Origin: Armatimonadota bacterium
Lineage (GTDB): Bacteria > Armatimonadota > DTGP01 > JAKQQT01
Direction: 5' to 3'
NCBI GenBank assembly: GCA_036504095.1
Contig: DASXVS010000017.1
Coordinates: forward strand, 1 to 64,000
Length of the DNA stretch: 64,000 nucleotides
Shown here: positions 1-59,712 of the stretch, piece after piece
How positions within the stretch are numbered: the first letter of the stretch is position 1
Layout: each line of letters opens with the position of its first letter
The notes under the pieces: generated by a model
What the model saw: only the letters and a program-made list of their open reading frames with translations
Told to the model about the DNA's origin: nothing
Databases searched by the model: none
Made by a program: the position numbers and the translations under genes

Positions 1-2604
1 GCGCAGGTCTTCAAACGCGAAGATGGCCCCACCATAGGCGATAAGCTTTTCCACGGTGGTTCCGTCAGTGTATGTGACCTTAACGCGCGCCACGACCGTG
101 TCCGCCTCGGTGACGTTCGTGGTCGCCCACAGGAAGCGCAATTCGCCGGCCTTGCGGTCGCCAAGTGGGATATCGATCGATTTCGGCCATTCTCCCGCCG
201 GATTGAGCGCGCCCGCCATCCAGAGCGCCGGGCCAACGCTGAACGTCGTGCCCGCAAGGGTTTCGAGTTTCGAGTGACTGGCTCCGAGTTCGGGGATGGG
301 GCTCGGAACTCGAAACTCGGAACTCGGAACCGGCAGTTCGACCGTGAAGCCCTTGTGAGTGGACATGTCCACCGGCTTGCGGTCCCAGAACGTGCGGAAC
401 GCCTCATCCGGGTCATAGCCAAGCGCGTCCAGGCCGGGCTGGCCGCCGTTCCACGCGTACTCGCCAGCTAGAAGGTAGGCCACGAACTGGATGAAACTCG
501 CGCCGCCAACGAGGTCGGTGCTCATCGAATAGCCCGCCCAGGTCGTCTGGCAGAGGCCCATCGCCTTCTCATTGCCCAGCACACGCGCGAAATTCTGGAT
601 ATTGCCGCGCTCATACCACGGGCATCCCACGACCTGGAAGCCTTCCTTCTGCCAGATCCCCACGCTCGGGAAATCGGGTTTCTGGGCATCGTAGTGCCAG
701 TCGGCGATGATGATGTCCTTCGGCAAGCCGGACCGGCGGGCCTTTGCGGTGGGCACGTCCGGCGCGTTGCCGGCGTCGTTGGCTTCGTCCGGCCAGTGCA
801 GGAACTCGTCGCCCCACATCATCGTGGCGATGCCCTTCGCCTTCAGCCAGTCGTGGACCTTGTTGACGTCCTCGAGGATCAGGTCATTCACCGGCTTGCT
901 GACGCCCTTCGGCGGGAAGAGGCCGCCGGTGGTGATCTCGTCTCGGCCGATGTGGAAGGTCTTCGGCTTGAAGATGTCGATCGCTTCCTGCATCACCGGG
1001 AACAGGATGTCCGTGTAGACGCGTCCCTTGGTGGGGTCGTACTGGTAGCGCTTCACCGGATCCGTGGCCACATCCAGGTTCTGGCCGTTCACGAACATCC
1101 AGTCGGCGTGACCGAGGCCGTTGACCAGAGGGATCGGCTCCATGAAGTGCGCCCGCGCATAGTCCACGGTCTTCTTCATATCCGCCAACGGTGTGGAGCG
1201 ACCCTTGTCCCAGATCTTGGGCTGCGACTTCCACTGCGAGAAGTCCACCTGGTACAGCATCTGGTTCAACTTCGTCGCGGCGCAGATTTTGGAGATCATC
1301 GCCTCGTGGAACGGGACCGACTGCGGCCCGCCGAACCAGTGAACGCCCCGGAAAGGCATGGAGGGCCAGTCGCGTATCTTCACGGCCTTGATGTACACCC
1401 CGTCCTGGTCCACCCGGATGAGCTGCTTCAGCGTCTGGATGCCATAATAGACGCCGCGCGGGTCGGAGCCGACAACAGACACGCCGTATTCCCCCGAGAG
1501 GAGCCTATAGGCCTCAGGATTGGACGGTGGTGTTAGGCTGGCCTCGTACTTGTCGCCAACCGGCCAAACATAGATATCCACGCTGTTACGCAGTTCGTCT
1601 ATCGGACCGTTTAGGTCACCGATGGGCAGGCTAAGGCCCCACACGTCCTCGAGTTCGGCCTGGAGTTCCTTCGCGCCCTGCTTGGCCTCAGGCGAGGCCG
1701 ACTTCATCACGTAGATACGGCTGAACTTGTCGAGACGCGCCTTGCCCTCGCCAACCTTCATCTCCTTCGGGTGCGGGATCACCGGCAGTTCGGCGCGGTA
1801 CGGAACGCGGGCGGTGTCGATGTCCTTCACCTTTGCGCCTGTGGCCATGCCTTCCACGGATTTGTTCGCCACGGGATTGCTGAACTTCCACGTGACAGTC
1901 ACGCCCTGTTGTCCCGGCTTGACAGGGATCTGCGGTACACCGATGCCGAACCAGAAGACCGGGTTAGCGCGCGCCCAGTCCTGCTGGCCGCCGCGCGCGT
2001 CGAAGAGCTTCATCGCCGCCGTGTCCTTGTCGGTGCCTTCCACGGCGATCTCGATGCGGCCGATGCGGCTCTCAAACGTGATCTGCTTCACCAGCGGGCA
2101 GAGCTGGCTTGCGTTCTGATCGTCGGTCGTGGCGTACATCGGCACCGTGCCGGATTTGGGGCCGTCGATCGTTTCCGCCTTGAACGGCACCCCCGATATG
2201 AGGTTGGCGTTGATGTAGCCGTTGGTGTACTCCACCTCGGCCGGCGCGCCCTTGCTGCCCCAGGTGACCGCGATCTTGACCGTATCGTCCGGCCGGACTT
2301 CCACGCGGTACTTGGCCCATGCGCCGTCGGTCTCGTACGCGACCGTTCCGACTTTGGCGTCGCCCTCGGTAGCGGTCGTGAACTTCGGTATTTCCTGATC
2401 CTGGTTCAGGATCGGACCCGTCCACCCAGGCTTGACCACGTAGAGATGCGATTCGCGGGTGACCGGGATACCGTTGTAGAAAAGCCGCAGGTGCCGTCCC
2501 TGCGAGAACACGGCCCGCACATGCCCGGCGGAAAGGTCCAGGTTCTCGGCCCGCGTCATCGGCAGCCCCAACACGAAGAGAGCGAAAACTATCATTCGAA
2601 TCAT
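1..2604 (-). CDS. Secreted GH20-like glycosidase, paralogue A (3' end beyond window)
   Basis: The frame is open from an ATG at 2604 to the window edge, about 868 codons, and by comparison with its two neighbours roughly 75 C-terminal residues are missing. A hydrophobic signal peptide is followed by a beta-rich N-terminal domain that shares the KPGWTG motif with both paralogues. A GH20b-type domain and a TIM-barrel-like region follow. The motif HIGRDE near residue 551 carries the Asp-Glu pair used for substrate-assisted hydrolysis in GH20 beta-hexosaminidases. A C-terminal beta domain follows residue 785. Residues about 757-781 are encoded by an inserted heptad repeat element that keeps the frame. 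Exported hydrolysis of HexNAc-containing glycans is inferred from family only; the exact substrate is unknown. Confidence 0.85.
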   Translation of the reverse strand, partial: MIRMIVFALFVLGLPMTRAENLDLSAGHVRAVFSQGRHLRLFYNGIPVTRESHLYVVKPGWTGPILNQDQEIPKFTTATEGDAKVGTVAYETDGAWAKYRVEVRPDDTVKIAVTWGSKGAPAEVEYTNGYINANLISGVPFKAETIDGPKSGTVPMYATTDDQNASQLCPLVKQITFESRIGRIEIAVEGTDKDTAAMKLFDARGGQQDWARANPVFWFGIGVPQIPVKPGQQGVTVTWKFSNPVANKSVEGMATGAKVKDIDTARVPYRAELPVIPHPKEMKVGEGKARLDKFSRIYVMKSASPEAKQGAKELQAELEDVWGLSLPIGDLNGPIDELRNSVDIYVWPVGDKYEASLTPPSNPEAYRLLSGEYGVSVVGSDPRGVYYGIQTLKQLIRVDQDGVYIKAVKIRDWPSMPFRGVHWFGGPQSVPFHEAMISKICAATKLNQMLYQVDFSQWKSQPKIWDKGRSTPLADMKKTVDYARAHFMEPIPLVNGLGHADWMFVNGQNLDVATDPVKRYQYDPTKGRVYTDILFPVMQEAIDIFKPKTFHIGRDEITTGGLFPPKGVSKPVNDLILEDVNKVHDWLKAKGIATMMWGDEFLHWPDEANDAGNAPDVPTAKARRSGLPKDIIIADWHYDAQKPDFPSVGIWQKEGFQVVGCPWYERGNIQNFARVLGNEKAMGLCQTTWAGYSMSTDLVGGASFIQFVAYLLAGEYAWNGGQPGLDALGYDPDEAFRTFWDRKPVDMSTHKGFTVELPVPSSEFRVPSPIPELGASHSKLETLAGTTFSVGPALWMAGALNPAGEWPKSIDIPLGDRKAGELRFLWATTNVTEADTVVARVKVTYTDGTTVEKLIAYGGAIFAFEDLR
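260..331. repeat. Two-armed heptad element inside GH20 paralogue A
   Basis: The left arm is a run of GTTTCGA-like 7-nt units and the right arm a run of CTCGGAA-like units, its approximate reverse complement, around a short spacer. It lies in frame in the linker between the catalytic region and the C-terminal domain. The same position is occupied in paralogues B and C. Confidence 0.8.
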
Positions 2605-2632
2605 CAGGTATTCCTTTGTGTTATGTCGATTT

Positions 2633-2716
2633 CCACCACGGAGAAAGCGGAGGACACGGAGGAATTGCTTTTGTCTTCCTCCGTGCTCCTCCGTGTCCTT
2701 CGTGCCCTCCGTGGTC
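2633..2716. repeat. Nonamer-type inverted repeat between GH20 genes A and B
   Basis: The left arm (about 2633-2665) has CACGGAGGA-like units and the right arm (about 2675-2716) has CCTCCGTGN-like units repeating every 9 nt. Together they form a potential long hairpin. It fills the gap upstream of paralogue A and downstream of paralogue B. Related copies lie at 5519, 18598, 20384, 44983 and 62578. Confidence 0.75.
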
Positions 2717-2729
2717 GATTCGGGTGTGC

Positions 2730-5507
2730 TTACGATATTCCAGTCAGTCCCCCTAGAACAGGTGCGCATTCGGTACGCTTGGACTCCACGGTAACACTCT
2801 TGATACCGGTTCCGGGCCTCGGATTCGTCCACCTCCACACGCGCTGCGATGTGGCTATCCCCTGGACGCTCTTGCGGTTCACCGTCACGTTCTGGTCGCC
2901 GGCCCGCTGGTCGGTCGCCGCGGCGATCTGCACGCCATACAGCACCGGGACAGTTTCCGTCTTGCCATCGGCATACATCACATTCAATGTGGCAACCTCG
3001 GTGTCCATGGCAGTCGCCAGCGTGCCCGACCACAAGAAAGCGAGTTCCGAAGCCTTCTTTCCACCCAGCGGCAACGTTACGGATACCGGTCCTGCGGAGA
3101 GCGCCCCGGCCAGCGCCAACGGAGCGACCTGAGCGAACGACACACCGGCCAGTCGCGTTCCGAGTTTCGAGTTCCTAGTTCCGCGAGCCGAGGGCTTTGG
3201 TTCCGTCACTCGGAACTCGGAACCCGGAACTCGAAACTGAACCGTGAAGCCCGGGCGTAAGGTCCGGTCCACCGGCTTCCTGTCCCAGAAGTGGCGGAAG
3301 GCGGCTTCCGGATCGTAGCCCAGCTCATCGAGGCTGTATTTGCCGCCGTTCCATGCGTGCTCGGCGGCCAGCAGGTAGGCGACGAACTGGTACAGGTTCT
3401 CCTTGAGGACGATGTCTTCGGACATGATCCAACCGGCCCATGTGGTCTGGATCATCCCCAGTCCCTGCGCTGCGGTGATGGCCTTCGCGAGATAGCGGAT
3501 GTTGTTGCGGTCGAACCAGGAGCAGCCGATGACGTCGAACCCGGCCTTCTTCAGGATTTCGAAACTCGGATAGCGGGGCGAATCGCCCTGGTAGTGCCAG
3601 TCGGCGATGACGATGTCCTTCGGCAGTTGCTCGCGCATCGCCTTGCCGTCCGCCAGCGTCGGGGCGTTGCCCGCGTCCGTTGCTTCCTCGGGGAAGTGGA
3701 CCAGTTCGTCGCCCCACATCATCGTCTTCACGTTGCGCTGCTTCAGCCAGTCATGGACCTTCGTGACGTCGTCCACGATCAGTTTCACCGCCGACTCCGT
3801 CTCGCCCGCCGGCGGGAGCGAGCCGGGCTTCACGGTGATCTCGTCGTGGCCGATGTGCAGGTACTTCGGCTGGAACAGGTCGATCGCTTCCTGAAAGACC
3901 TTGAAGAGCAGTTCGTACGATTTGGGGTTGTGAGGGTCGAACGAGCGCTTGTTGTCCGAGTAAAGCAGGTCCTTGTTCTGGCCGTTCACGAACATCCAGT
4001 CGGAGTTTCCAAACGAGGTGACCTCCGGGATCGGCTCCATGAAATGGGCGCGGGCGAGGTCCACGGTCTTCTTCACGTCCGTCTTGCTCATGCCGCGGGC
4101 GGCATCGGGCTTGGCGACGGCCTCCCAGTCGGCGTACTCCACTTCGAAGAGCATCGTGTTCAGCTTCAGCGGCGCGGCGATGTTCTCGATCATCCGCTTG
4201 TGGAACGGGTGGGAGTTTCTCCCTCCGAACCAATGGACACCCCGAACGCCGAGGGTTGGCCAGTCGCCGATCTCGGAACCCTTGAGGAATACGCCCCTTT
4301 CGTCTGCGCGAACCAGTTGCTTCAGCGTCTGCGCTCCGTTGTACGCGCCACGCGGACTCGACCCAAATACGATGACACCCCAATGGTCCACCGACAGCGC
4401 GTATCCTTCGGGCCGCTTCATCAAGGCACGGAAATGAGCGTCATTGCGGCTTCCGCCGATGGCCATCAGTCGGGGGATGACCTGAGGTTGAATTATGTAG
4501 ATCCCACCTCCTTCGAGGCCGCCGTCCCATCCCGTGAGGTCAGTCTTCAGGATGCGCACAGGCGTATCCCAGAGGTCGCGGAACTCGGACTGCAACTCCC
4601 GCGCCGCCTGCTTTTCCTCTTCGCTTGCCTTATCCGAGATGATGATGCGATGGCTCCCCTGGCTCAATCGATACGGGCGGATGTTTTCATCCATCTCCTT
4701 CGGCTTCGGGATGATCGGAAAGTCCGGGACGAACGGGCCGAGCGCGGATTTGTCCGGCGTGACCGTAGTCTTGACAGTCATCGACTTCGGCAGCGGCCCT
4801 GCCGCCGGGGGGCTGAACCTGTACGTCATCGTGAGTGTCTTCTCGCCCGGCGCGGGCATCGGCTTCACATCCATCCCCAGCCAGAGCATTGGGTTTTTGC
4901 GCGCCCACTCGGCTTCGCCCTTGCGGTAGTCGTCCAGGCGCATCGAGGCCGGCTTGCCGTCGTCCTCAATCGTCAACGCAACCGGACCGAGTTTCGTCTG
5001 GAACGTGATCTGAGAGATGTCCCGCAGAAGCGTAGTCGCCGCCGGCGGCGCGACGAGGGGCACCTTGCCCGACCGCCCGCCGTTGGCGGTATACGGCGCG
5101 CCCTCAAAGAGGTTGGCGTTCAGGTAGGTATACAGCGTTGCCTCAGCGGGCGGCTCCGCCTTGCAGCCGTAGGTCAGTTTGAGCGTGAACAGGTCGGGCC
5201 GCAGCTCGAAGCGGTAGCGCGCGTAGCCCTGTTCCGCCGTGAACTCCGCCGTCCCAACCTGAACCCCGCCCTCACCCGAGGAAGCGCACTTCGGCGTGGC
5301 GTCGTCCTGGTAGATGTACACACCTGTCCAGCCCGGCTTGATGACGAACAGGCTCTGGTCGCGAAAGACCGGCACGTTCCGCACAAAGAGCGTCATCCGG
5401 CTTCCGCCGTTCACCTGAAACCGCAGGTCTCCCGATTTCATCTCCATGAGCGGTGCCGCGTGCGCAGCGGAAGCGGCAAGCGCCAGAGCCACAAAGTAGC
5501 GAAGCAT
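2730..5507 (-). CDS. Secreted GH20-like glycosidase, paralogue B
   Basis: This 925-residue protein starts at the ATG at 5507, which has a GAGGG Shine-Dalgarno and leads directly into a signal peptide ending about AHA. The frame is open further upstream, but that stretch is only the nonamer repeat. The order is signal peptide, beta-sandwich with KPGWTG, a GH20b-like domain (about 290-430, motif SDKASEEE) and a catalytic barrel with HIGHDE near residue 552 (Asp-Glu pair). A C-terminal beta domain ends in the LxGLTGI signature shared with paralogue C. Residues about 755-783 come from an inserted heptad element. Co-directional with A and C, it is probably part of a tandem duplication. Extracellular amino-sugar glycan degradation is inferred from family. 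Confidence 0.88.
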   Translation of the reverse strand: MLRYFVALALAASAAHAAPLMEMKSGDLRFQVNGGSRMTLFVRNVPVFRDQSLFVIKPGWTGVYIYQDDATPKCASSGEGGVQVGTAEFTAEQGYARYRFELRPDLFTLKLTYGCKAEPPAEATLYTYLNANLFEGAPYTANGGRSGKVPLVAPPAATTLLRDISQITFQTKLGPVALTIEDDGKPASMRLDDYRKGEAEWARKNPMLWLGMDVKPMPAPGEKTLTMTYRFSPPAAGPLPKSMTVKTTVTPDKSALGPFVPDFPIIPKPKEMDENIRPYRLSQGSHRIIISDKASEEEKQAARELQSEFRDLWDTPVRILKTDLTGWDGGLEGGGIYIIQPQVIPRLMAIGGSRNDAHFRALMKRPEGYALSVDHWGVIVFGSSPRGAYNGAQTLKQLVRADERGVFLKGSEIGDWPTLGVRGVHWFGGRNSHPFHKRMIENIAAPLKLNTMLFEVEYADWEAVAKPDAARGMSKTDVKKTVDLARAHFMEPIPEVTSFGNSDWMFVNGQNKDLLYSDNKRSFDPHNPKSYELLFKVFQEAIDLFQPKYLHIGHDEITVKPGSLPPAGETESAVKLIVDDVTKVHDWLKQRNVKTMMWGDELVHFPEEATDAGNAPTLADGKAMREQLPKDIVIADWHYQGDSPRYPSFEILKKAGFDVIGCSWFDRNNIRYLAKAITAAQGLGMIQTTWAGWIMSEDIVLKENLYQFVAYLLAAEHAWNGGKYSLDELGYDPEAAFRHFWDRKPVDRTLRPGFTVQFRVPGSEFRVTEPKPSARGTRNSKLGTRLAGVSFAQVAPLALAGALSAGPVSVTLPLGGKKASELAFLWSGTLATAMDTEVATLNVMYADGKTETVPVLYGVQIAAATDQRAGDQNVTVNRKSVQGIATSQRVWRWTNPRPGTGIKSVTVESKRTECAPVLGGLTGIS
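3157..3240. repeat. Two-armed heptad element inside GH20 paralogue B
   Basis: The left arm (3157-3183) is made of GTTCCGA-like units and the right arm (3208-3238) of ACTCGGA units every 7 nt, complementary to the left. It is in frame and sits in the same linker as in paralogues A and C, with a different loop. Confidence 0.8.
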
Positions 5508-5518
5508 ATAACCCTCTT

Positions 5519-5592
5519 TCACCGCAGAGGACGAAGAGAGCCGCGGAGCTGATTCAGTGACTTCCTCTGCGGCCTCCGCGTCCTCTGCGGTA
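5519..5592. repeat. Nonamer-type inverted repeat between GH20 genes B and C
   Basis: The arms are ACCGCAGAGGA-like (5519-5548) and CCTCTGCGG/CCTCCGCGT units of 9 nt (5563-5592). It lies between the start of paralogue B and the stop of paralogue C, so it would be transcribed if the genes form one operon. Confidence 0.75.
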
Positions 5593-5602
5593 AGCAATCA
5601 GC

Positions 5603-8440
5603 CTACTCGATGCCGGTCAGGCCGAGCAGGACGGGCGCTGCCTCGGACTGGGCGCTGCTGAGCGTTACGCTCTTGATTGCTTTCGCGGGGTTGGGGTTTG
5701 TCCACATCCAGCGGCGCACGCTGGCGCTCTGCCCCCGCGGCGTAGTACCGGTCCAGGCTGTCGTCGTCTGCGGTCCGGCCTGCGCGTCCGTGAAGGCGAA
5801 GATCTGACGTCCGTAGGCGATGGGCGCCTGAACGGTCGCACCGTCCGTGTAGGTGACCTTCAACGTCGCGACCGGTGTGTCCTTCGCTGCGGCGAATGTG
5901 GCGCCCCACAGGAAGTGCAGATCGGCCGCCTTCCGGTTCAGCGTGATGGTCACCGATTTCGGCCACTCGCCCGGCGGGTTCAGGGCGCCGTCCAGCCATA
6001 TCGGCGTTGACTGTCGGAACGTGATGCCGCTCAGCGCCATCGGTTCCGACTTCCGCGTTCCGAGTTCCGGGATGGTACTCGGAACGCGGGACTCGGAACT
6101 CGGAACCCCGAAGTCCACCGTGAACCCGGCGCGTTTCACCATGCTCACGGGCCGCCTGTCCCAGACGGCCAGGAAGGCGTCGTCCGGGCGGTAACCGAGG
6201 TCCGCCACGTTCGGCTTACCGCCGTTCCACGCGTACTCCGCGCCGAGCAGGTAGGCCACGAACTGGTTGAAGGAGTCGCCCTTCACGATGTCCGGGAACA
6301 TGTTGTAGCCGGCCCACGTAGACTGCAGGAAGCCGAGACTCTTCTCCTTGTTCAGCACGCGGCTGAAGTTCTGGATATTGCCCCAGTCGTACCACGTTGT
6401 GCCCAGAACCTGGAAGCCGTCCTTCTGGAGGATCGCCACGCTCGGGAAAGCGGGGTCGCTGCCCTGGTAATGCCAGTCGGCGATGATGGTGTCCTTCGGG
6501 ACGCCCGCGCGGCGAGCCACGGCATCCGCCTTTGTGGGGGCCAGGCCGGCGTCCGTTACCTCGGTCTCGTGGAGCAGCATGTCGCCCCACATCATCGTCT
6601 TGATGCCTTTGGCGGCCAGCCAGTCGTGCATCTTGTTCGTGTCCGCCAGGATAAGCTCACCGGCGGTCTTCTTCGAGCCCGCCTTGGGGAACTGGCCGCT
6701 CATCGTGACCTCGTCATGCCCGATGTGGAAGTATTTCGGCTGAAACAGGTCCACGGCTTCCTGCATAATCGGCATCACGATTTCGTAGGTCTTCGGGTTC
6801 TCGGGGTCATAGGCGAACGGCTTCGAAGGATCGGCGCAGATATCGAGATTCTGATTGTTCCAGAAGAGCCACTCGCTGTGTCCCAGCGTGTTCACCAGCG
6901 GGATGGGCTCGATGAAGTGCGCCCGCGCGTAATCCACGGCTTTCTTGACGTCCGCCTTCGTGCTGCTGCGCTCGGAACTCCAGATCTTCGGCTGCGTGGC
7001 CCACTGCGTGTAATCGCACTGGAAGACCATCGTGTTCATCTTGAACGCCGAGAGGACGCGGTCGATCATCTTCTTGTGGAACGGCCACGCGTCCGGCCCG
7101 CCGAACCAGTGGACGCCGCGCATCGAAAGCGATGGCCAGTCCGAAATCTCCACAGGCTTGATGTACACACCCTTGGCGTCCACACGGATCAACTGCTTCA
7201 GGGTCTGGACGCCGTAGTATACACCGTGCGGATCGCCCCCAAGAACCGCGACCCCGCCTAGCTGCGAACCCATGAAGTAGGACTCGGGGTGGGACAGGGT
7301 CTCGCGGATGTGCCGGACCCTTTCCACCTCCCCGGAGCGTGGAGGAGGCAGAAGCGCGGAACCCAGGAACAGCTCGATGGCGTCATTGTCCGTTTCACCG
7401 GACCAGGTTGCGACATTGACCTTTTCGATCCGCACCGGCACGCTCCAGAATTCCTTGAACTCCGCGACGAGTTCCCGGGCGCCCTGTATCTCTTCTTCGC
7501 TCGCCGTGTCCGAGATCAGAATCCTGGTCTTGCCCGGCATCACCCGGAACGGGGCCAGAGCCTTGCCTGGCTTCATCTCCTTCGGCCGCGGGATAACCGG
7601 TGTTTCGACGACGAACGGACTCTGAGCGACTTTCACGGGAACCACCTTCGCCTTGCCGGCGGCGGAGGCGACGACGGTCCTTTGTGCAGGCTCTCCGAAT
7701 TTCCACGTGATGGTGATGGTGTGCTCGCCAGGCGGCAGCGCGGGGGCCGGCACGCCGATTCCCAGCCAGAAAATAGGGTTCTTGCGCGCCCAGTCCTGTC
7801 CGCCTTTGCGGGCGTCGAACAGCGTGAGCGATTTCGTGATGTCCGAGGTGCCCTCTACGGTCATCTCGATACGGCCAAAAGCCGTCTCGAACACCGCGTG
7901 TGACATGTTCGGGGCGAGTTTGGATTCGACCTGGTCGGCACTCTTCGCGAAAAGCGGTACCACGCCGCTTACTTTGCCCTTGACCGTTTCCGCTGTGAAC
8001 TTCGCGCCCTGCAGGATATTGGCGTTCAGGTAACCGGCGTCGTACTCCACCACGGACTCCGGACCCTTGCTGGCGAAAGTGAGCGTGACCTTGAACGTGT
8101 CGTCCGGGCGGACCTCGAAGCGATACTTCGCGTAGGCGTTCAACTTGTCGAAGGTCGCGGTGGCCACTTTCGTGCGGCCTTCGGAGGAGGTGGTCACCTC
8201 CGGATCGTCTTTGTCCTGGTTCAGGTAGGCGCCCGTCCACCCGGGCTTAACGATGTAGAACGTGGACTCACGGATGAACGGGACGCCGCGCACGGTGAGC
8301 TCCATCCCGGAGGACTTGCTCAACGAGAAGCGCAGATGCCCCGCGGAAAGGTCCGCCAGGGGTGCGGGGCCGGCGGCGAACGCGGGAATAACCGAGAGGG
8401 CGCCGCTGCACAGCAGGGCGGCCAGGGCGAATCTCAACAT
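5603..8440 (-). CDS. Secreted GH20-like glycosidase, paralogue C
   Basis: This 945-residue protein starts at the ATG at 8440, preceded by AAAGG and opening a signal peptide (MLRFALAALL...). A longer reading from a TTG at 8506 would cross an operator-like palindrome and is unlikely. The domain order matches B: beta domain with KPGWTG, GH20b-like domain (motif SDTASEEE) and barrel with HIGHDE near residue 572. The C-terminal beta domain ends in LLGLTGIE. A heptad element encodes about residues 777-800. It is first in transcription order and has the only sizeable upstream region, so it probably carries the promoter for the three genes. GH20 membership rests on the HIGxDE motif and fold order; substrate is not determined. 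Confidence 0.88.
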   Translation of the reverse strand: MLRFALAALLCSGALSVIPAFAAGPAPLADLSAGHLRFSLSKSSGMELTVRGVPFIRESTFYIVKPGWTGAYLNQDKDDPEVTTSSEGRTKVATATFDKLNAYAKYRFEVRPDDTFKVTLTFASKGPESVVEYDAGYLNANILQGAKFTAETVKGKVSGVVPLFAKSADQVESKLAPNMSHAVFETAFGRIEMTVEGTSDITKSLTLFDARKGGQDWARKNPIFWLGIGVPAPALPPGEHTITITWKFGEPAQRTVVASAAGKAKVVPVKVAQSPFVVETPVIPRPKEMKPGKALAPFRVMPGKTRILISDTASEEEIQGARELVAEFKEFWSVPVRIEKVNVATWSGETDNDAIELFLGSALLPPPRSGEVERVRHIRETLSHPESYFMGSQLGGVAVLGGDPHGVYYGVQTLKQLIRVDAKGVYIKPVEISDWPSLSMRGVHWFGGPDAWPFHKKMIDRVLSAFKMNTMVFQCDYTQWATQPKIWSSERSSTKADVKKAVDYARAHFIEPIPLVNTLGHSEWLFWNNQNLDICADPSKPFAYDPENPKTYEIVMPIMQEAVDLFQPKYFHIGHDEVTMSGQFPKAGSKKTAGELILADTNKMHDWLAAKGIKTMMWGDMLLHETEVTDAGLAPTKADAVARRAGVPKDTIIADWHYQGSDPAFPSVAILQKDGFQVLGTTWYDWGNIQNFSRVLNKEKSLGFLQSTWAGYNMFPDIVKGDSFNQFVAYLLGAEYAWNGGKPNVADLGYRPDDAFLAVWDRRPVSMVKRAGFTVDFGVPSSESRVPSTIPELGTRKSEPMALSGITFRQSTPIWLDGALNPPGEWPKSVTITLNRKAADLHFLWGATFAAAKDTPVATLKVTYTDGATVQAPIAYGRQIFAFTDAQAGPQTTTAWTGTTPRGQSASVRRWMWTNPNPAKAIKSVTLSSAQSEAAPVLLGLTGIE
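6042..6108. repeat. Two-armed heptad element inside GH20 paralogue C
   Basis: The left arm (6042-6069) has GTTCCG-containing 7-nt units and the right arm (6076-6108) has ACTCGGA units. It is in frame in the same linker as in paralogues A and B. Confidence 0.8.
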
Positions 8441-8456
8441 GGGCTTGCCTTTCACA

Positions 8457-8470
8457 TTGTTATATAACAA
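8457..8470. promoter_or_regulatory. Perfect 14-bp palindrome upstream of GH20 paralogue C
   Basis: TTGTTATATAACAA is a perfect palindrome about 16 nt before the ATG at 8440. It is AT-rich in a GC-rich region. The position would suit an operator for a dimeric repressor acting on the glycosidase genes; no regulator gene is adjacent. Confidence 0.45.
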
Positions 8471-8619
8471 CAGTCCATATTGAGGCAACGGGGCTGTGAA
8501 AGTCAATCCCGACCGCTATCGTGCCCCGACGTCAAGCGTGCGAGGCGGTCCGGCGGCAACTTTTTTCGGTTTTTTTTGCATGAACGGTCCATTTTGCGAT
8601 CATCCATGACATAATAAGT

Positions 8620-8748: not shown

Positions 8749-8894
8749 GGCGGGTCACCCGGCCTTCGGCCACCCTTTCCCGCCGCTATGCGAAACCCCG
8801 CGCGGGTCGCGAGCGTCCATCTTCATGGCGGCTCCCGGTCTCCTATTGCCGCCTGAAACCGTATACACCAAATCCGGAGCGTTTCACCGGGTGG

Positions 8895-8900: not shown

Positions 8901-8915
8901 GCACGTGAGGTAAGA

Positions 8916-10031: not shown

Positions 10032-10032
10032 T

Positions 10033-10110
10033 CGGCATCCGGCATCCGGCATTCAGCATCCCGGACGGGAAACGAAGCCTGAATGCTGGATGCTGAATCC
10101 TGAATGCTGA
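10033..10110. repeat. Two-armed heptad element upstream of the PKD gene
   Basis: The left arm is GGCATCC/GGCATTC units of 7 nt (10033-10061) and the right arm GCTGAAT/GCTGGAT units (10079-10110), approximate reverse complements. The right arm runs directly into the AAGGAG of the next gene. The 54741-54838 element uses the same unit. Confidence 0.8.
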
Positions 10111-10124
10111 CAAAGGAGACCACT

Positions 10125-11114: not shown

Positions 11115-11193
11115 AATGATGAATAATCAGCGATGAATGAAGTACGGGCGCGTCACCCGCAGCCGGCATTCATCGCTCGTCATTCATCATTGA
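11115..11193. repeat. Two-armed heptad element upstream of the UbiA-type gene
   Basis: The left arm (11115-11141) has GATGAAT units and the right arm (11167-11193) has CATTCAT units spaced by 7 nt. It fills nearly the whole gap between the PKD stop and the ATG at 11199. Confidence 0.75.
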
Positions 11194-13589: not shown

Positions 13590-14152
13590 GCACAGATCCC
13601 CCATCCCCCATACCCGGTCCCCCATCCTCCACCCCCGCCGGGCTTTTCATCGTCTACACGGGAAACGGTAAGGGCAAGACCAGCGCGGCGCTCGGCATCG
13701 TGCTACGGATGATGGGTCGGGGAATGCGCGCCTGCATGCTCCAGTTCATCAAGAAGAAGAGCCTCAGGGCCGCGGAGAACCGCTTTGGCGAGGCGATGGG
13801 CGTGGAGATCGTCGGGCTTGGCGACGGTTTCACGTGGGTCGCCCGCGATGACAACGCGTCCAACGAGGCGCTGGCGCGGGAAGGCTGGCAGATCTGTAAG
13901 GACCGCATCAACAGCGGCGAATACCACGTGGTCATCCTGGACGAGATTACCTATCCCATCACGTTCGGCTGGCTGCCGGTGGAGGACGTCCTCGAGACGA
14001 TCCGCGCCCGTCCTCGAGGCCTGCATATCGTGATCACCGGGCGTGACGCGCACCCCGCGCTCATCGAGGCCGCCGATCTCGTGACGGAAATGCGCGAAAT
14101 CAAGCACCCCTACCAGCGCGGCGTGCCACCCCAGAAGGGAATCGACGTCTAA
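13586..14152 (+). CDS. cobO: Corrinoid adenosyltransferase (CobO/BtuR type)
   Basis: This 188-residue cytosolic enzyme transfers the adenosyl group of ATP to the cobalt of cob(I)alamin or cobyrinic acid a,c-diamide. The P-loop TGNGKGKTS (about residues 25-33), the LDEI Walker-B-like segment and the final HPYQRGVPPQKGI region match the CobA/CobO/BtuR family at its usual length. The first 17 residues are Ser/Pro-rich and are encoded by a one-armed heptad repeat, so the family-like protein begins about residue 18. The gene overlaps the SdpI-family gene by four bases. No other cobalamin genes are in the window. Confidence 0.9.
   Translation: MSTDPPSPIPGPPSSTPAGLFIVYTGNGKGKTSAALGIVLRMMGRGMRACMLQFIKKKSLRAAENRFGEAMGVEIVGLGDGFTWVARDDNASNEALAREGWQICKDRINSGEYHVVILDEITYPITFGWLPVEDVLETIRARPRGLHIVITGRDAHPALIEAADLVTEMREIKHPYQRGVPPQKGIDV
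13596..13634. repeat. One-armed heptad repeat in the 5' end of cobO
   Basis: About five imperfect copies of ATCCCCC at 7-nt spacing. No complementary second arm follows. It encodes the Ser/Pro-rich N-terminus of CobO. Confidence 0.6.
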
Positions 14153-16078: not shown

Positions 16079-17098
16079 ATGCCCGTCATCCAGGTAACCG
16101 AACTCACCAAGACGTTCTACAACACCAAGCGCGCCTCCGGCTTCGGCGGGGCAGTGCGCAGCCTGTTTTCACGTCAGAAGACGGCGGTCACCGCGGTGGA
16201 TAGCGTATCCTTCGAGATCGAGCAGGGCGAACTGGTCGGTTTCCTCGGCCCCAACGGCGCCGGGAAGACAACGACACTCAAGATGCTCACTGGCATCGTG
16301 TTTCCAACGTCCGGGAAGGCGACGGTCCTGGGCTACACCCCGTGGGAGCGCCGCCAGCCGTTCCAGCGTCAGATTTCACTGGTGATGGGGCAGAAGAACC
16401 AGTTGTGGTGGGATCTCCCGGCGTCGGAGTCGTTCCTCCTGCTGCGCGAGATCTACGAAGTGCCGCACGCGCAGTGCAAGGCCACGCTGGACCAACTGAC
16501 CGAGCTTTTGGATGTGGGCCGTCTCCTGACCACGCAGGTGCGCAAGCTCAGCCTCGGCGAGCGCATGAAACTCGAACTCATCGCCGCCCTGCTCCACAGC
16601 CCGCGCGTTTTGTTCCTCGACGAGCCGACCATCGGCCTGGACGTTGTCTCTCAGAAGCGCATCCGCGAGTTCATCAAGGAGTACAACCGGTCGCAGGAAA
16701 CCACGATCATCCTCACCAGCCATTACATGGACGACATCCAGGAGTTGTGCGAAAAGGTCGTCATCATCGACCACGGGCGGGTGGTCTTCGCCGACCGCCT
16801 GGCCGTCCTGGTGGATCGGTACAGCCACACCAAGCTGCTGAAACTCAAGTTCCTCACAACCGTGGAGCGCGTGGACGTGGAGCGGTTTGGCGAAGTGTGC
16901 GAGTTCGACGGCGTGTCTATGACGTTGGAGGTCCCCCGCGAAAAGAGCACCAAAGTCGCTGCGGCCGTGCTGGACGCGCTTCCGGTTGCCGATATCACCA
17001 TCGAAGAGATGGGCGCCGAAGAAGTCATCCGCAACCTGTTCCAGGGCAAGCAGGATTCGGGATTCGGGATTCAGGATTCGACCGCTGATCCCGTGTGA
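16079..17098 (+). CDS. ABC transporter ATP-binding protein, ABC-2 export type
   Basis: This 339-residue ATPase has Walker A GPNGAGKTT (about 57-65), a Q-loop in GQKNQLWWD, the signature LSLGE (about 157) and Walker B LFLDEPT (about 178). The H-loop is SHYMDD. The insert QKNQLWWDLPA is typical of ATPases that pair with ABC-2/DUF990 permeases. A C-terminal regulatory region of about 100 residues follows. No permease gene is adjacent on either side, which is unusual. The last residues (QDSGFGIQDS) are encoded by a one-armed heptad repeat, suggesting the original end and perhaps following genes were altered. Cargo unknown. Confidence 0.88.
   Translation: MPVIQVTELTKTFYNTKRASGFGGAVRSLFSRQKTAVTAVDSVSFEIEQGELVGFLGPNGAGKTTTLKMLTGIVFPTSGKATVLGYTPWERRQPFQRQISLVMGQKNQLWWDLPASESFLLLREIYEVPHAQCKATLDQLTELLDVGRLLTTQVRKLSLGERMKLELIAALLHSPRVLFLDEPTIGLDVVSQKRIREFIKEYNRSQETTIILTSHYMDDIQELCEKVVIIDHGRVVFADRLAVLVDRYSHTKLLKLKFLTTVERVDVERFGEVCEFDGVSMTLEVPREKSTKVAAAVLDALPVADITIEEMGAEEVIRNLFQGKQDSGFGIQDSTADPV
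17052..17083. repeat. One-armed heptad repeat in the 3' end of the ABC ATPase gene
   Basis: Four copies of GGATTCG/GGATTCA at exact 7-nt spacing encode the last residues before the stop. No second arm is seen. Confidence 0.65.
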
Positions 17099-47802: not shown

Positions 47803-47904
47803 ACTGGAAACGGGGAAACGGGGAAATGGGGCAATGGGGCAATGGGGAAATGGGGAAACCGGACTCGGTCGCATTTCCCAATTACCCCATATCCCCATTT
47901 CCTG
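47803..47904. repeat. Two-armed element with 8-nt unit
   Basis: The left arm (47803-47860) has about seven GGAAATGG-like units at 8-nt spacing and the right arm (47871-47904) has CCATTTCC-like units at the same spacing. It lies between the lyase start and the fhs stop. This is the only copy seen with an 8-nt period; others use 7. Confidence 0.75.
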
Positions 47905-50767: not shown

Positions 50768-50892
50768 GGGCGCCCACGCGCGGCCCCCCGTATGGGCCGC
50801 CCGCCGGACACCCCACCTGTAATCATCCTTGGTCCCAAAGTGGGCGCCCATCCCCGGCGCCCCATCGGGTGTTGTTATCTAGGAGTCGACCC

Positions 50893-51375: not shown

Positions 51376-51409
51376 GCCGGACCTCCGCTGCGAACTGGAG
51401 CAAATACAG

Positions 51410-51793
51410 ATGGCCATGATCAAAGACAAAGAGCAGCTCGCCGAATTGCGGGACAGCCTCAAGGCATCGCTGCAAGAGAAACGCACGGCGGGCGCGCGCG
51501 TGCTCATCGGAATGGGAACGTGCGGAATCGCCGCCGGCGCCCGGGACGTGATGGACGCCGTTCGCGCCGAACTCACCGTGCGCGAAATCCCGGCGGACGT
51601 GGTCTCCGTGGGCTGCATCGGCATCTGCCAGATGGAACCCATTGTGGATATCGAACAGGGCGGCCGCACACGGGTCACTTACCCCAACGTCACCCCGGAG
51701 ATGGTTCCCCGCCTGATTGAAGAGCATTTCGACAAGGGCCGCATCGTCGAGGAGTGGGCGGTCGCCCGCCTCGATTCCAACGGCCTGGCATGA
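51410..51793 (+). CDS. Thioredoxin-like [2Fe-2S] ferredoxin subunit
   Basis: A 127-residue protein in the family that is fused to the N-terminus of HydB in electron-bifurcating hydrogenases, here as a separate gene. It has MGTCGIAAGARDV and VGCIGICQMEP. Only three Cys are visible (38, 69, 73); the usual four-Cys [2Fe-2S] site seems to be missing one ligand, so either a different residue binds or the cluster is absent. It is 34 bp after the NuoE gene. It may act in assembly or electron relay. Confidence 0.8.
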   Translation: MAMIKDKEQLAELRDSLKASLQEKRTAGARVLIGMGTCGIAAGARDVMDAVRAELTVREIPADVVSVGCIGICQMEPIVDIEQGGRTRVTYPNVTPEMVPRLIEEHFDKGRIVEEWAVARLDSNGLA

Positions 51794-51868
51794 CACACAG
51801 CTTGAGATTTGCAACTTGCATTTTTCGGTTTGCAATTCTCCGGACCCCTTCGGAGAGGACACAACGTG

Positions 51869-54739: not shown

Positions 54740-54740
54740 C

Positions 54741-54838
54741 CTGGGCATCCGGCATTCGGCATCCGGCATTCAGACCGAGCCGAACCGGGCTCTCCGCAAC
54801 CTGAATGCCGGATGCTGGATGCTGAATGCTGGAGACTG
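54741..54838. repeat. Two-armed heptad element between the fusion gene and the NuoG-like gene
   Basis: The left arm (54741-54773) has GGCATCC/GGCATTC units and the right arm (54802-54838) has GATGCTG/AATGCTG units, in 7-nt steps. The right arm ends in GGAGA, just before the next ATG at 54842, and so serves as that gene's Shine-Dalgarno. The unit matches the 10033-10110 element. Confidence 0.8.
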
Positions 54839-54841
54839 ACT

Positions 54842-56548: not shown

Positions 56549-56640
56549 CACGGTAGGTCGGGCCTCCGCGCCCGACACGGTAGAACGGGCGTCTCGCCCG
56601 TTGATTGGGCTGGGCCTCCGCGCCCGACACGGAATGTCCG
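56549..56640. repeat. Cluster of short GC hairpins (third repeat class)
   Basis: Three hairpins built around GGGCCTCCGCGCCC or ACGGGCGTCTCGCCCGT fill the gap between the NuoG-like gene and hoxY. A matching copy is at 20443-20470. Confidence 0.6.
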
Positions 56641-56674
56641 GCGGCGCGCCGGATATCACGAAGGGAACTTGACG

Positions 56675-57214
56675 ATGGCGAAACCGAAAATCGCAACCGA
56701 CTGGATGGGGGATTGTGCGGGCTGCCACATGTCCCTCCTGGATATGGATGAACGCCTCCTCACGGTGCTGGGAAAAGTGGAACTCACATCTTCACCCATC
56801 ACGGACCTCAAGCATCCCCCGGAGGAGGGCGTAGCGGTGGGCGTCCTCAGCGGATCGATCAACAATACGTCCAACGTGTACGTGGCCCGGATGATGCGAA
56901 AGCGCTCGGGGTGCCTCATCGCCATGGGGGATTGCGCCGTCCTGGGCGGAGTGCTCTCCATGCGGAACGCCTTTGACATCAAGGAGGGGCTGCGCCGAGC
57001 GTACATCGACACCGAGAGCACCGTCGACGGGTTCATCCCGCAGTCCGATGAGCTCGCCAAACCCATCCGCAACCGCCCGCTGGACCAGGTGGTGAAGGTG
57101 GACTACCACCTGCCCGGCTGCCCCCCGTCCGCCGACGCCATCTTCCACGTGCTGAATGAGCTCGCGGAAGGCCGGGAGCCGGTGGTAGAAGGGGAAGCGC
57201 TCAAGTACGACTGA
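56675..57214 (+). CDS. hoxY: [NiFe] hydrogenase small subunit HoxY
   Basis: A 179-residue subunit that holds a [4Fe-4S] cluster next to the NiFe site. The ATG at 56675 is preferred over a TTG six bases upstream because AAGGGA is spaced eight bases from it. Cluster ligands are in GDCAGCHMS, the MGDCAVLGG loop and HLPGCPPSAD. No twin-arginine signal is present, so the enzyme is cytosolic, as in group 3 hydrogenases. The following S23-type gene separates hoxY from hoxH, an unusual interruption. Confidence 0.92.
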   Translation: MAKPKIATDWMGDCAGCHMSLLDMDERLLTVLGKVELTSSPITDLKHPPEEGVAVGVLSGSINNTSNVYVARMMRKRSGCLIAMGDCAVLGGVLSMRNAFDIKEGLRRAYIDTESTVDGFIPQSDELAKPIRNRPLDQVVKVDYHLPGCPPSADAIFHVLNELAEGREPVVEGEALKYD

Positions 57215-57666
57215 GGGGTTAGGTGAAGGGCTGAGGGCTGAGGAGAAAAACGATGGCCCATTTCGAGGAACTGATCGCCTGGCAGAAGGCGCGGCAGTTG
57301 GCGGCGTCCGTTTATACCGTTACGCGATCCGCTCCATGGGCGAAAGACTTCGGACTGGCCGGACAGATACAACGAGCGGCGGTGTCCATCATGGCCAACA
57401 TCGCAGAAGGCAATGAGAGGGGGTCGAGCGTTGATTACCATCGGTTCCTCTGCATGGCGAAGGGATCTTGCGCAGAAGACCGGTCTCACCTTTGCATCGC
57501 GTTCGATATAGGTTACCTGAACGAGGATTCATCTCACGAATTGATGAAGGAAGCTGACGAGGTCAGTCGATTGGTTGGAGGACTACGCGCTGCGATAGCG
57601 CGCCGGTTGAGCCAGGAGACCTTAGTGTCACCGCCTCAGCCCTCGGCCCCCAGCCCTCAGCCCTGA
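57212..57666 (+). mobile_element. Heptad-arm cassette carrying an S23 four-helix-bundle gene
   Basis: The left arm (57212-57244) has GGGCTGA units of 7 nt and the right arm (57634-57666) has the complementary CCCTCAG units. The left arm provides GAGGAG for the enclosed gene, and the right arm encodes its Pro/Ser-rich C-terminus and stop. The cassette sits between hoxY and hoxH without breaking either, so it has the form of a small insertion. No transposase is present. Mobility is inference. Confidence 0.6.
57253..57666 (+). CDS. Four-helix-bundle protein, S23/IVS family
   Basis: A 137-residue protein starting at the ATG at 57253. The signature ELIAWQKARQLAASVY and QRAAVSIMANIAEGNER mark the S23 family, first seen in 23S rRNA intervening sequences and related to Avd of diversity-generating retroelements. 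Members form pentameric or oligomeric nucleic-acid-binding bundles. The last 15 residues (PPQPSAPSPQP) come from the right repeat arm. No reverse transcriptase or rRNA is nearby. It interrupts the hydrogenase operon and may be linked to movement of the surrounding repeats. Confidence 0.85.
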   Translation: MAHFEELIAWQKARQLAASVYTVTRSAPWAKDFGLAGQIQRAAVSIMANIAEGNERGSSVDYHRFLCMAKGSCAEDRSHLCIAFDIGYLNEDSSHELMKEADEVSRLVGGLRAAIARRLSQETLVSPPQPSAPSPQP

Positions 57667-57700
57667 CATCCGATCCACCGAGCGAATAAGGACTAGAGGA

Positions 57701-59122
57701 ATGCAGAAGATAACCATTGAACCTGTGACCCGGATTGAGGGGCACGCGAAGATAACCATCCACACCAATGAAAACGGCAAGGTGGAACGGGCTTACCTGC
57801 ACGTAAACGAATGGCGCGGCTTCGAGAAATTCTGCGAGGGCAGGCCCTACTTCGAAATGCCCCAGATTACCCCGCGTATATGCGGTATCTGCCCGGTAAG
57901 CCATCACCTGGCGGCTGCCAAGGCGTGCGACGTCATCATCGGCGCCGTTCCCACACGCCCGGCGTCTCTCCTGCGCGAACTGATGCATATGGGGCAACTC
58001 ATCCAGTCCCATTCGATGCACTTTTTCGAGCTCGCCGGTCCGGACCTGCTGCTAGGATTCGACGCCGCCCCCGCCATCCGCAATGTGGTGGGCATCGCGC
58101 AGGCCAACCCGGACCTGGCGGTGAAGGCGATCCGGCTGCGCGCGTTCGGGCAGGAGATCATCCGGGCGCTGTCCGGGCGTCGCATTCATCCGACCTACGC
58201 GGTTCCCGGCGGGGTGAACAACGCGATCACCGTTGAACAGCGCGACTCCATTCTTGCGCAATGCGACGAGATGTTGGAGATCATGAAGGTCGGCATCGCG
58301 CTGGCCAAGCGCTGGTACGACTCCCATATGGACCTGGTGGACCGCTTCGCCGTGTTCCAGTCCGGCTACCTCGGCATGGTGGACCCGGATGGCGCGCTTC
58401 AACTTTACGACGGGGATATCAGGCTGATCGACAGCCAGGGCCGGAAGCTCGAGCAGTTCGCCGCCGCTAACTACCTCGACTACATCGGCGAGCACGTGGA
58501 AGACTGGAGCTACCTCAAGTTCCCGTTCTACCGCAGACTTGGGTGGCCCGATGGAACGTATCGTGTCGGGCCTCTCGGTCGCTGCAACGTGGCCGAGAAG
58601 ATCACGACGCCGATCGCCAACGCGGAACTCAAGCACTTCAAATCCATCAATACCGGCCGGCCCGTGGAAGGCACCCTCTGGTACCATTACGCCCGCCTGA
58701 TCGAGGATGTGTACGCGCTGGAACGGGCGAAGGAAATACTCCACGATCCGGACATCCTGTCAAACGATCTCGTTGCGCCCGCCTACAACCCCAAACGGGA
58801 GGGCATCGGCTGCATCGAGGCGCCTCGCGGCACGCTCTTCCACCACTACAAAGTCGATGACGACGGCCTTCTCACCCACGTCAACCTGATCGTCGCCACG
58901 GGCCACAACAACCACGCGATGAGCAAGGCCGTGGAGATGGTCGCCAAGGCGTTTGTGGACGGCAACAAGCCCACCGAGGCGATGCTGAACCAGGTGGAGG
59001 CCGCCGTTCGCGCGCACGACCCGTGCCTGTCCTGCTCGACGCACGCCGCGGGCCAGATGCCCATCGCGATCGAGATACTCGGCCCCGACGGCAGCGTAAT
59101 GCAAACGCTTCGGCGCGGATAG
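57701..59122 (+). CDS. hoxH: [NiFe] hydrogenase large subunit HoxH
   Basis: This 473-residue catalytic subunit carries the Ni-Fe centre. The L1 motif is RICGICPVSHH (C61, C64) and the L2 motif is DPCLSCSTH near the C-terminus. Beyond the final His is a tail of about 25 residues (AAGQMPIAIEI...), which the dedicated protease removes after metal insertion. AAGGA precedes the ATG. Sequence and partners place it in group 3 (bidirectional, NAD(P)-linked). No hyp maturation genes are present in the window. Confidence 0.95.
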   Translation: MQKITIEPVTRIEGHAKITIHTNENGKVERAYLHVNEWRGFEKFCEGRPYFEMPQITPRICGICPVSHHLAAAKACDVIIGAVPTRPASLLRELMHMGQLIQSHSMHFFELAGPDLLLGFDAAPAIRNVVGIAQANPDLAVKAIRLRAFGQEIIRALSGRRIHPTYAVPGGVNNAITVEQRDSILAQCDEMLEIMKVGIALAKRWYDSHMDLVDRFAVFQSGYLGMVDPDGALQLYDGDIRLIDSQGRKLEQFAAANYLDYIGEHVEDWSYLKFPFYRRLGWPDGTYRVGPLGRCNVAEKITTPIANAELKHFKSINTGRPVEGTLWYHYARLIEDVYALERAKEILHDPDILSNDLVAPAYNPKREGIGCIEAPRGTLFHHYKVDDDGLLTHVNLIVATGHNNHAMSKAVEMVAKAFVDGNKPTEAMLNQVEAAVRAHDPCLSCSTHAAGQMPIAIEILGPDGSVMQTLRRG

Positions 59123-59712
59123 TGGAGAAGGATTCAGGGTTCAGGGTTCAGGAGTCAGCGTGGAACGCGATCCTTTCCAAAGAAGGCGAAGTCATCGGCA
59201 CCGGGCTGACTCCCGACTCCTGTCTCCTGTCTCCTGCCCTCATCATCGGCTACGGCAACCCCTACCGCCGCGACGACGGTGTGGCCTGGCACGTCATCAA
59301 CGCCCTCCGCGCACGCCTCGGCCGGCCCCCATTGGCTCTGGATGACACCGGCGAAGACAACCTCGGCCACGCCGTCGACACCGTGATGGCTCACCAACTG
59401 GTCCCCGAAGTCGCGTTGCTGCTCCCCCCATATTCGCGAGTGATCTTCGTGGACGCCCACATCGGCGAGATCCCTGTGCCGCTCCGGGTGATCGAGGTTG
59501 AACCGGGCGGCGAGTTTCAGGCGACCACCCACCACTTCGGCCCGGGCATGCTGCTCTCGCTCGCCCAGGCCCAGTCCGGCACCTCCCCGCGCGGCTGGCT
59601 GGTCTCCATCCGCGGCGACGATTTCAACTACGGCGAAACCCTCACCGAGACGTGCGCAAGCCAGGTGGAACCGGCGGTGGACGAGATTATGCGGCTGGCC
59701 GATACGAACTGA
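59122..59712 (+). CDS. Hydrogenase maturation protease
   Basis: A GTG start at 59122 overlaps the hoxH stop as TAGTG; no in-frame ATG exists, and no good binding site is visible. The 196-residue protein has the family motif GYGNPYRRDDG and later Asp/His that bind nickel. It cuts the C-terminal tail of HoxH. The first 40 residues are unlike other members and are encoded by a two-armed heptad element. The true start may be further in. Its C-terminal 48 residues are repeated at 60589-60738. Confidence 0.85.
   Translation: MEKDSGFRVQESAWNAILSKEGEVIGTGLTPDSCLLSPALIIGYGNPYRRDDGVAWHVINALRARLGRPPLALDDTGEDNLGHAVDTVMAHQLVPEVALLLPPYSRVIFVDAHIGEIPVPLRVIEVEPGGEFQATTHHFGPGMLLSLAQAQSGTSPRGWLVSIRGDDFNYGETLTETCASQVEPAVDEIMRLADTN
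59131..59237. repeat. Two-armed heptad element in the 5' end of the protease gene
   Basis: The left arm (59131-59158) has GGTTCAG units and the right arm (59206-59237) has CTGTCTC/CTGACTC units, all in 7-nt steps. It encodes the non-conserved N-terminus of the maturation protease. Confidence 0.75.

Follow-up and report, generated by a model that had tools for sequence, protein, structure and literature searches.

The 23S rRNA intervening sequences (IVSs) of Leptospira, Coxiella and other bacteria consist of an IVP (S23p) gene placed between terminal inverted repeats that form a long stem. In Coxiella, tandem heptamers in variable number are reported before the S23p gene, as is processing of the IVS by RNase III (PMC4990558). 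IVP-type open reading frames (ORFs) are also reported in the rRNA insertions of bacteria of the Candidate Phyla Radiation (CPR; PMC11270868). Heptamer arrays have been described in other genomes: 186 arrays of GGGAATC in X. campestris, with 70 cases of two in inverted orientation, studied as possible quadruplexes (PMC4692102); heptamer arrays and paired heptad sites in Geobacter (PMC2700814); and TAACTGA repeats in Beggiatoaceae (PMC4679880). Here we analyse a stretch of 64,000 nt, hereafter the window, from an Armatimonadota bacterium (contig DASXVS010000017.1, called C17 below, of a 4.68-Mb draft genome). A first-pass annotation had noticed in it about ten dispersed loci with a left arm of short tandem units and a right arm that is its rough reverse complement.

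We think it probable that the window loci are compact insertion elements, a full copy of which has a single small gene between a pair of inverted arms, each built of 7-9-nt tandem units. The window arrays look like mostly gene-less relatives of single-gene elements best known from inside rRNA genes, and the 23S IVS looks like one case of compact insertion elements in which no transposase was seen.

IVP genes between inverted arms of tandem units

The locus at 57212-57666 is more than a plain repeat. It has heptad arms, and between them lies a gene matching PF05635, 23S_rRNA_IVP (E 6e-35), whose frame runs on through the right arm. The element sits between an Oxidored_q6 gene (20-kDa-type Fe-S subunit) and a NiFe hydrogenase large-subunit gene.

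57212..57666, plus strand: gene-bearing element with arms AGGGCTG / CAGCCCT and a 23S_rRNA_IVP gene inside (Tandem Repeats Finder, TRF, and profile match)
57253..57666, plus strand: PF05635 (23S_rRNA_IVP, four-helix bundle) frame from ATG to stop, through the right arm; domain at 57265-57576

The sole solved structure matched by this protein was Xanthomonas campestris XCC0516 (2gsc), described as a homopentamer of four-helix bundles (PMC4990558).

PF05635 was matched eight times in the genome. By inspection every one of these genes is enclosed by inverted tandem-unit arms, and the unit differs from gene to gene; one arm is degenerate in L004 and L008. Seven of the eight loci pass the inverted-repeat score defined below, the window element scoring 15 against a cut of 18. 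Ribosomal RNA was recognised around only one of them, L005, which sits inside a 23S rRNA gene at a position that we take to be helix 45. Helix 45 is the reported place of the Coxiella IVS (PMC4990558). The IVP of L003 matched no phage record at E 1e-5.

In all, 146 IVP loci were examined: the 8 of this genome, 29 from other genomes of the phylum, 80 named loci of many phyla and 29 of a Lysobacter-genome family. These sets are best matches rather than random samples, and 141 loci had a usable flank. The control consisted of 411 intervals from three of the four sets, and an inverted flank was called at a score of 18 or more. Inverted flanks were found at 103 of the 141 IVP loci versus 20 of the 411 control intervals, and periodic inverted flanks at 97 (69%) versus 10 (2.4%). 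Among the 103 loci, the best period was 7 or 14 nt in 74, 8 in 12 and 9 in 8; in the 93 with arms under 90 nt, the 5′ arm on the IVP sense strand was G-rich in 84 and C-rich in 6. The cut was reached by 7/8 loci of this genome, 24/28 of the phylum, 44/76 of the many-phyla set and 28/29 of the Lysobacter family, where the arms flanking the IVP genes read, by eye, GGGATTC, GGGAATC or GGGACTC. IVP loci on plasmids had a qualifying inverted repeat in four cases out of six (L213 and L214 being the two without). An earlier scoring, with flanks taken from ORF ends, had placed 91 of 140 usable loci over the cut; it under-counted the Lysobacter family because open frames ran into the arm, and was replaced by flanks taken from the domain match. 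The distance from stop codon to arm had a median of -1 nt in 40 loci and was unclear in 37. As these values come from raw ORFs, and stop codons may lie within arms, placement rests instead on named genes: fabD/fabG in Sphingomonas, cas6/cas4, and the genes of the window.

The IVP protein is under purifying selection, and is maintained while the arms differ. Of 13 pairs compared, eight had a finite synonymous distance dS and gave dN/dS ratios of 0.03 to 0.25 (dS was above 2 in two of the eight); the other five pairs were saturated.

Gene-less copies in the window and in the genome

The remaining elements of the window have no gene and are listed without strand.

10033..10110: two-armed, AGCATCC family, starting 1 nt past the stop codon of an M48 peptidase gene
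11115..11193: inverted repeat of imperfect GATGAAT/GATGAAC heptads, 6 nt past a stop codon; absent from TRF and from the two-arm census
54741..54838: two-armed, AGCATCC family, starting 1-4 nt past the stop codon of a NuoF-like gene
59129..59237: two-armed, arms AGGGTTC / GACTCCT, 6 nt past the stop codon of the hydrogenase large-subunit gene
47803..47904: two-armed, 8-nt GGGGAAAT family, 4 nt beyond the stop of a formate-tetrahydrofolate ligase gene on the minus strand
259..331: two-armed, GAGTTCC family, read through inside ORF 1-3033 (minus strand)
3157..3240: same insertion as 259-331, in a second paralogue (GH20 ORF 2730-5597, minus strand)
6043..6106: same insertion as 259-331, in a third paralogue (GH20 ORF 5603-8506, minus strand)
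2632..2718: two-armed, 9-nt CACGGAGGA-type unit, the type that flanks the two GxxExxY genes of the genome
5521..5591: two-armed, 9-nt CGCAGAGGA-type unit
13596..13637: one-armed heptad array (ATCCCCC)
17052..17083: one-armed heptad array (GGATTCG), no hairpin excess

TRF returned 7-nt arrays (8-nt at 47806) at every locus of the first-pass annotation except 11115-11193, which was detected as an inverted repeat with imperfect heptads only. The inverted pairing of most two-armed loci, 11115-11193 included, was recovered by an independent search. For the arrays at 13596-13637 and 17052-17083, noted earlier as one-armed, no partner arm was found. The two 9-nt elements (2632-2718 and 5521-5591) are additions to the earlier list. 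Over the window, 14 lag-7 segments were counted against a mean of 0.2 in 20 dinucleotide shuffles, and four two-armed pairs under a strict unit rule against none. Folded as RNA, seven elements (six of those noted earlier, and 2632-2718) gave z values of -4.6 to -7.7, and the one-armed array at 17052-17083 gave 0.05. No Rfam family was found above its threshold within the window.

The copies at 260, 3157 and 6042 occupy one position in three adjacent paralogous ORFs, with in-frame read-through, and are therefore best read as one insertion copied by gene duplication (the GH20 assignment covers the two scanned paralogues, 2730-5597 and 5603-8506). The hairpin element is now an in-frame stretch of these three ORFs, between conserved parts of the protein. 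Three two-armed elements, one of them with the IVP gene, lie at junctions of one NiFe hydrogenase gene cluster (54741-59237), whose genes encode a NuoF-like protein, an Fe-S/molybdopterin-type subunit, a 20-kDa-type subunit and the large subunit; this single cluster thus took several insertions.

The first-pass annotation had proposed a genome-wide scan for an excess of periodic inverted arms over shuffled sequence. Run on 849,573 nt (18% of the genome), the scan gave a large excess over one shuffle: 59 lag-7 segments (1 in the shuffle), 13 lag-8 segments (0), 48 two-armed elements with a period of 7, 8 or 9 nt (0) and 89 one-armed arrays (15). Two of the 48 two-armed rows are IVP elements, and three (C17:89487, C24:35427 and C24:157365) resemble GC-rich coding sequence and are probably false.

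Grouped by our own reading, the census units fall into about ten families genome-wide: AGCATCC, GATGAAC, GGGTCTA, GGGGAAAT (8 nt), CACAAAGG (8 nt), GAGTTCC, TTGAGAC, AGGGCTG, CACGGAGGA (9 nt) and a few singles. Copies with and without an IVP gene belong together, as units are shared between them. Of the seven heptad units of IVP elements (read by eye), four recur exactly, in any rotation and on either strand, among the 25 units of non-IVP elements; shuffles of the same composition gave a mean of 0.14, and four was reached in none of 5000 trials. For AGGGCTG, one of the four, the match is a large-loop element without a recognised gene. The 8-nt unit of 47803-47904, of the GGGGAAAT family, is also similar to that of the IVP element L006. 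The idea that these loci share geometry and not sequence holds in its first half, geometry being shared more than sequence; the units do form families, with and without the gene. Nor is the unit different at every locus, since GGCATCC/AGCATTC-type units are common to the copies at 10033 and 54741.

Two extra large-loop elements of the census were read by eye, without a profile scan, and neither IVP nor DUF559 was seen in them: one has no recognisable gene, the other an ORF resembling a toxin-antitoxin remnant. A short ORF that looks by eye like a toxin-antitoxin remnant is enclosed by AGCATCC-family arms in L164 (C24:128868-129363), so AGCATCC arms may enclose other genes.

Elements differ between related species at one site

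When a Prevotella IVP element with its surroundings was used as a 2,401-nt query, 143 of the 150 genomes searched in that genus gave a match, in many cases to both flanks but not to the part between them. Sixty of these junctions, a stop codon followed by a gene starting mostly ATGGCAAACTATTATAG, were read, largely by eye; six IVP sites had been fetched for matching the query across the element, so the counts are not frequencies. Eight sites were empty, with 1-6 nt between stop and start and no arms (two of the eight being identical there), and three had 20-30 nt without arms. One or more small unrelated ORFs occupied 25 sites. An IVP element was found at seven, a DUF559 gene between G/C-rich inverted arms at six, a GxxExxY gene between CACGAATTA-type arms at one, and a gene-less inverted-arm element at five (L251, L260, L263, L282 and L301). 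Of the remaining five, one had another GC-rich insert, one was unclear and three were not anchored. Cargo was confirmed by Pfam in six scanned proteins (two IVP, three DUF559 and one GxxExxY) and assigned by similarity in the others. Among the gene-less elements, L282 shares two parts with L303, namely the right arm and the IVP gene's 3′ end; the rest is missing. We concluded that L282 is an internal-deletion derivative of a gene-bearing copy.

Different states were also found elsewhere. In another genus, of which 20 genomes were searched, an IVP element occupies a stop-codon junction in G215; at this junction G221 has similar arms around a reversed IVP gene, and a third species, G260, has a gene-less array of a different unit. 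The IVPs of G215 and G221 are reciprocal best matches among 117 proteins compared (69%). At the cas6-cas4 junction, reading by eye gave an IVP element with GGTGACA arms on a plasmid of Anabaena 90, an IVP element with AAAGCTA arms on a plasmid of Pseudanabaena galeata, and a heptad array without gene in Pseudanabaena ABRG5-3. The same junction has a palindromic GTAGGTTGGGTTGACGCAAGG..AACCCAACCTAC insert in the Dolichospermum plasmid pUHCC0315a (L215), with flanks 99% identical to those of Anabaena; in Nostoc UHCC 0302 it consists of a 23-nt gap. Elements of this type thus differ between related species at one site. L029 and L031 have orthologous flanks (88% and 78% identical) around different IVP elements, with arms of 9-nt and 7-nt units by eye, which makes another case of site reuse.

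The association with arms extends to other cargo genes. A prediction set beforehand from Prevotella was that the CACGGAGGA family would flank GxxExxY genes in the present genome; both of its PF13366 genes have, by eye, CACGGAGG-type inverted arms of 8-9-nt units, the computed best periods being 9 and 17. Plasmid GxxExxY genes had periodic inverted flanks in five cases of seven and none in the other two; in four the units were CACAGAG-like or CGCGAAGG-like by eye, and one of these plasmid elements sits between fabD and fabG in Sphingomonas. All four PF04480 genes of the genome lie near G/C-rich inverted repeats (scores 17-53 in one scoring and 19-53 in another), which by eye are not simple tandem units. 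DUF559 genes between G/C-rich inverted arms, in this genome (L311-L314) and in Prevotella (L271, L290, L291, L292, L297 and L300), form a third cargo class. Judged by their profiles, the GxxExxY (PF13366, PD-(D/E)XK) and DUF559 (weak REase_MTES_1575 match) cargo proteins would be nuclease-like. To our knowledge, IVP is not known as a nuclease.

The mechanism that we propose for compact insertion elements starts from what was observed: the anatomy, the IVP association, the different junction states, a deletion derivative and selection on the protein. Insertion would be tolerated in the gap of a few nucleotides that separates a stop codon from a start codon, where the transcript would fold into a long hairpin, likely a substrate for RNase III by analogy with known IVSs. 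The cargo protein may bind its own kind of hairpin, and gene-less copies, which form the majority of those seen in this genome and have just the hairpin, may use the protein in trans. The classical 23S rRNA IVS would be the same kind of element, placed in rRNA. Arms might lengthen and change by whole-unit slippage, their complementarity being kept by selection for pairing and by occasional exchange between arms. Movement would rely on host enzymes, because the spacers of about 0.4 kb are filled by one gene and neither transposase nor reverse transcriptase was seen in the spacers read. In a test of unit order on 85 elements, with arms chosen by periodicity to avoid selection bias, variant units were only weakly mirrored between arms (excess identity 0.8%; 49 higher, 32 lower; z 2.6), a result unfavourable to the idea that one arm was recently copied wholesale from its partner. 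A first register test, with a z of 10, was discarded because the arms had been chosen by the same alignment.

A wider proposal, to which we give about an even chance, is that the loci belong to an unrecognised class of insertion elements without a transposase gene, present in many phyla. Its members would carry one small cargo gene (IVP, GxxExxY PD-(D/E)XK nuclease or DUF559 nuclease-like) between inverted arms, made of 7-9-nt tandem units for IVP and GxxExxY. They would land at operon stop/start junctions, take one another's place at the same junctions, and spawn numerous gene-less hairpins that draw on the protein in trans; 23S rRNA IVSs, the scattered heptamer repeats of many bacteria and IVP genes in cas loci would all be faces of it.

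Several observations weigh against reading the loci as compact insertion elements. The Prevotella states, read without a host tree, do not tell gain from loss. When empty and filled Prevotella sites were compared for a target-site duplication, the flanks were about 72-88% identical and A/T-rich and the ends could not be fixed; no transposition was observed. A qualifying inverted repeat was lacking at 38 of the 141 IVP loci, weak arms being visible by eye in several of those under the cut (L067, L085, L099 and L109, for example). Some IVPs (L055, L060 and L061) have long been conserved at one site, which would also fit a host function. Two-armed copies number 56 per Mb here, but G215, with its 11 IVP genes, has 5 per Mb; none was found in 200 kb each of G084 and G022, and G013, the sole IVP-free genome sampled, has 5 per Mb. 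A dose relation between the number of IVP genes and that of gene-less copies was looked for and not found. Finally, all seven Y1_Tnp loci of the genome have inverted flanks as well (scores 26-48), none with a best period of 7; none of the three reverse-transcriptase loci has such flanks. What distinguishes the elements is the short period and not the inverted flanks in themselves.

One alternative is that the arms came first: tandem-unit hairpins would arise or insert alone, and IVP and nuclease-like genes would enter their loops later, as rRNA insertions favour stem-loops. Most insertions in CPR rRNA genes are reported at the top or base of stem-loops (PMC11270868), gene-less two-armed copies are many in the present genome and IVP-bearing ones few, and G215 and G221 have similar arms around a gene in opposite orientations. 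However, the two IVPs being each other's best match, one flip explains the arrangement more simply than two insertions would; moreover, the eight empty Prevotella sites have no arms, and L282, which keeps the end of the IVP gene, hence comes from a gene-bearing copy. We consider this order of events unlikely.

The first-pass annotation had suggested that the arms are rebuilt from a short template. In one scheme of this sort, a reverse transcriptase acting in trans would copy the hairpin RNA, with IVP in an Avd-like role and the arm units coming from a short RNA template. PF05635 proteins are reported to be related to Avd (PMC10053308), and one Prevotella IVP has a bAvd-like match (E 2.8e-5), below the cut-off for that family. 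Arms are arrays of one unit whose order is not clearly mirrored; three RVT_1 genes are present in the genome, and IVP shows a weak association with RVT_1 (odds ratio 2.1, p 0.01, uncorrected for genome size). Against this, RVT_1 was not matched in 79 of the phylum's 121 genomes with IVP, a set that includes many drafts, which led us to reject an obligatory reverse transcriptase in trans, and no RVT_1 match was found on the contigs of the eight IVP genes. The test of arm order is neutral on a short external template, and we hold the scheme to be improbable.

It could also be that the arrays are ordinary microsatellites produced by slippage, or hairpins of terminator type retained for the processing or stability of mRNA, with an incidental link to IVP. 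The window has intergenic hairpins that fold strongly, and an excess of heptamers is reported for many genomes, where they have been interpreted as G-quadruplex or regulator sites (PMC4692102, PMC2700814). This explanation, to which we give very little credence, is already contradicted by the IVP association (69% versus 2.4% for periodic inverted flanks); in addition, elements also occur inside coding ORFs and 23S rRNA, and whole elements differ between species at one site.

Movement of REP/REPIN elements (repetitive extragenic palindromes) by a Y1 transposase (REP-associated tyrosine transposase, RAYT) is hardly credible and was rejected: the genome has the seven Y1_Tnp matches with inverted flanks, but these are REP-like palindromes by eye, with best periods of 4 to 10 and never 7 (a z of 3 was reached in 2/7), and none of the seven genes lies between heptad arms. 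The Y1/RAYT loci among their REP-like palindromes (L041-L047, very long in L045) constitute a second, distinct dispersed-repeat system in the genome.

Comparison with known systems

If compact insertion elements account for these loci, three unexplained things may become one: the role of the IVP/S23p protein, the origin of rRNA intervening sequences, and the heptamer repeats scattered in bacteria. IVP genes have been reported in CRISPR/cas loci (PMC3936711); the junctions above offer an alternative explanation for them, namely that on some cyanobacterial plasmids the cas6-cas4 junction takes different insertions. Elements that move without a transposase gene would be a new kind of mobile DNA; if they do not move, IVP would have a long-conserved role in hairpins of operon mRNAs. 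A general tie between IVP genes and heptad inverted arms, or gene-less copies, was not found in a search of the open literature, which covered few subscription papers, part of the early work on IVSs and, of the preprints, those in PubMed Central.

The observations support the view that the elements lack defining features of those mobile-element families that were testable here. Miniature inverted-repeat transposable elements (MITEs) and REPIN/RAYT systems have a fixed terminal sequence and a transposase. Like them, the window elements are short and dispersed, often gene-less, with a minority of copies carrying a gene. Their arms, however, are short tandem units that come in many sequences, and the spacers showed no transposase. 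Avd, the accessory protein of diversity-generating retroelements, is a related four-helix bundle protein, but the linked reverse transcriptase of those systems was not found with the IVP genes.

The arrays can also be compared with the short tandemly repeated repetitive (STRR) sequences of cyanobacterial type. STRRs are tandem degenerate heptamer repeats, a feature that the window arrays share. The heptamer arrays of Xanthomonas (GGGAATC), Nostoc, Geobacter and Beggiatoaceae resemble the window arrays too in being dispersed and largely intergenic. In the accessible parts of two of the papers on such arrays, the readings are quadruplexes, regulator binding or translation signals, and no link to a cargo gene is made (PMC4692102, PMC2700814). 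The P6b element of the Nostoc trnL intron has the same stem of complementary heptads, with alternative unit classes replacing one another; it differs in belonging to a group I intron, and no cargo gene is mentioned in the accessible part of its description (PMC4476775).

The 23S rRNA IVSs are also among the described systems closest to the window elements. The inverted repeats and RNA folding of the window elements correspond to the IVS stem, and the IVP/S23p frame is present at 57212-57666, the gene-less copies being without it. The location differs, as the window copies lie between or inside protein genes and not in 23S rRNA. What further sets these elements apart from the IVSs is the gene-less majority, the presence of several unit families in one genome, and other cargo genes in similar arms.

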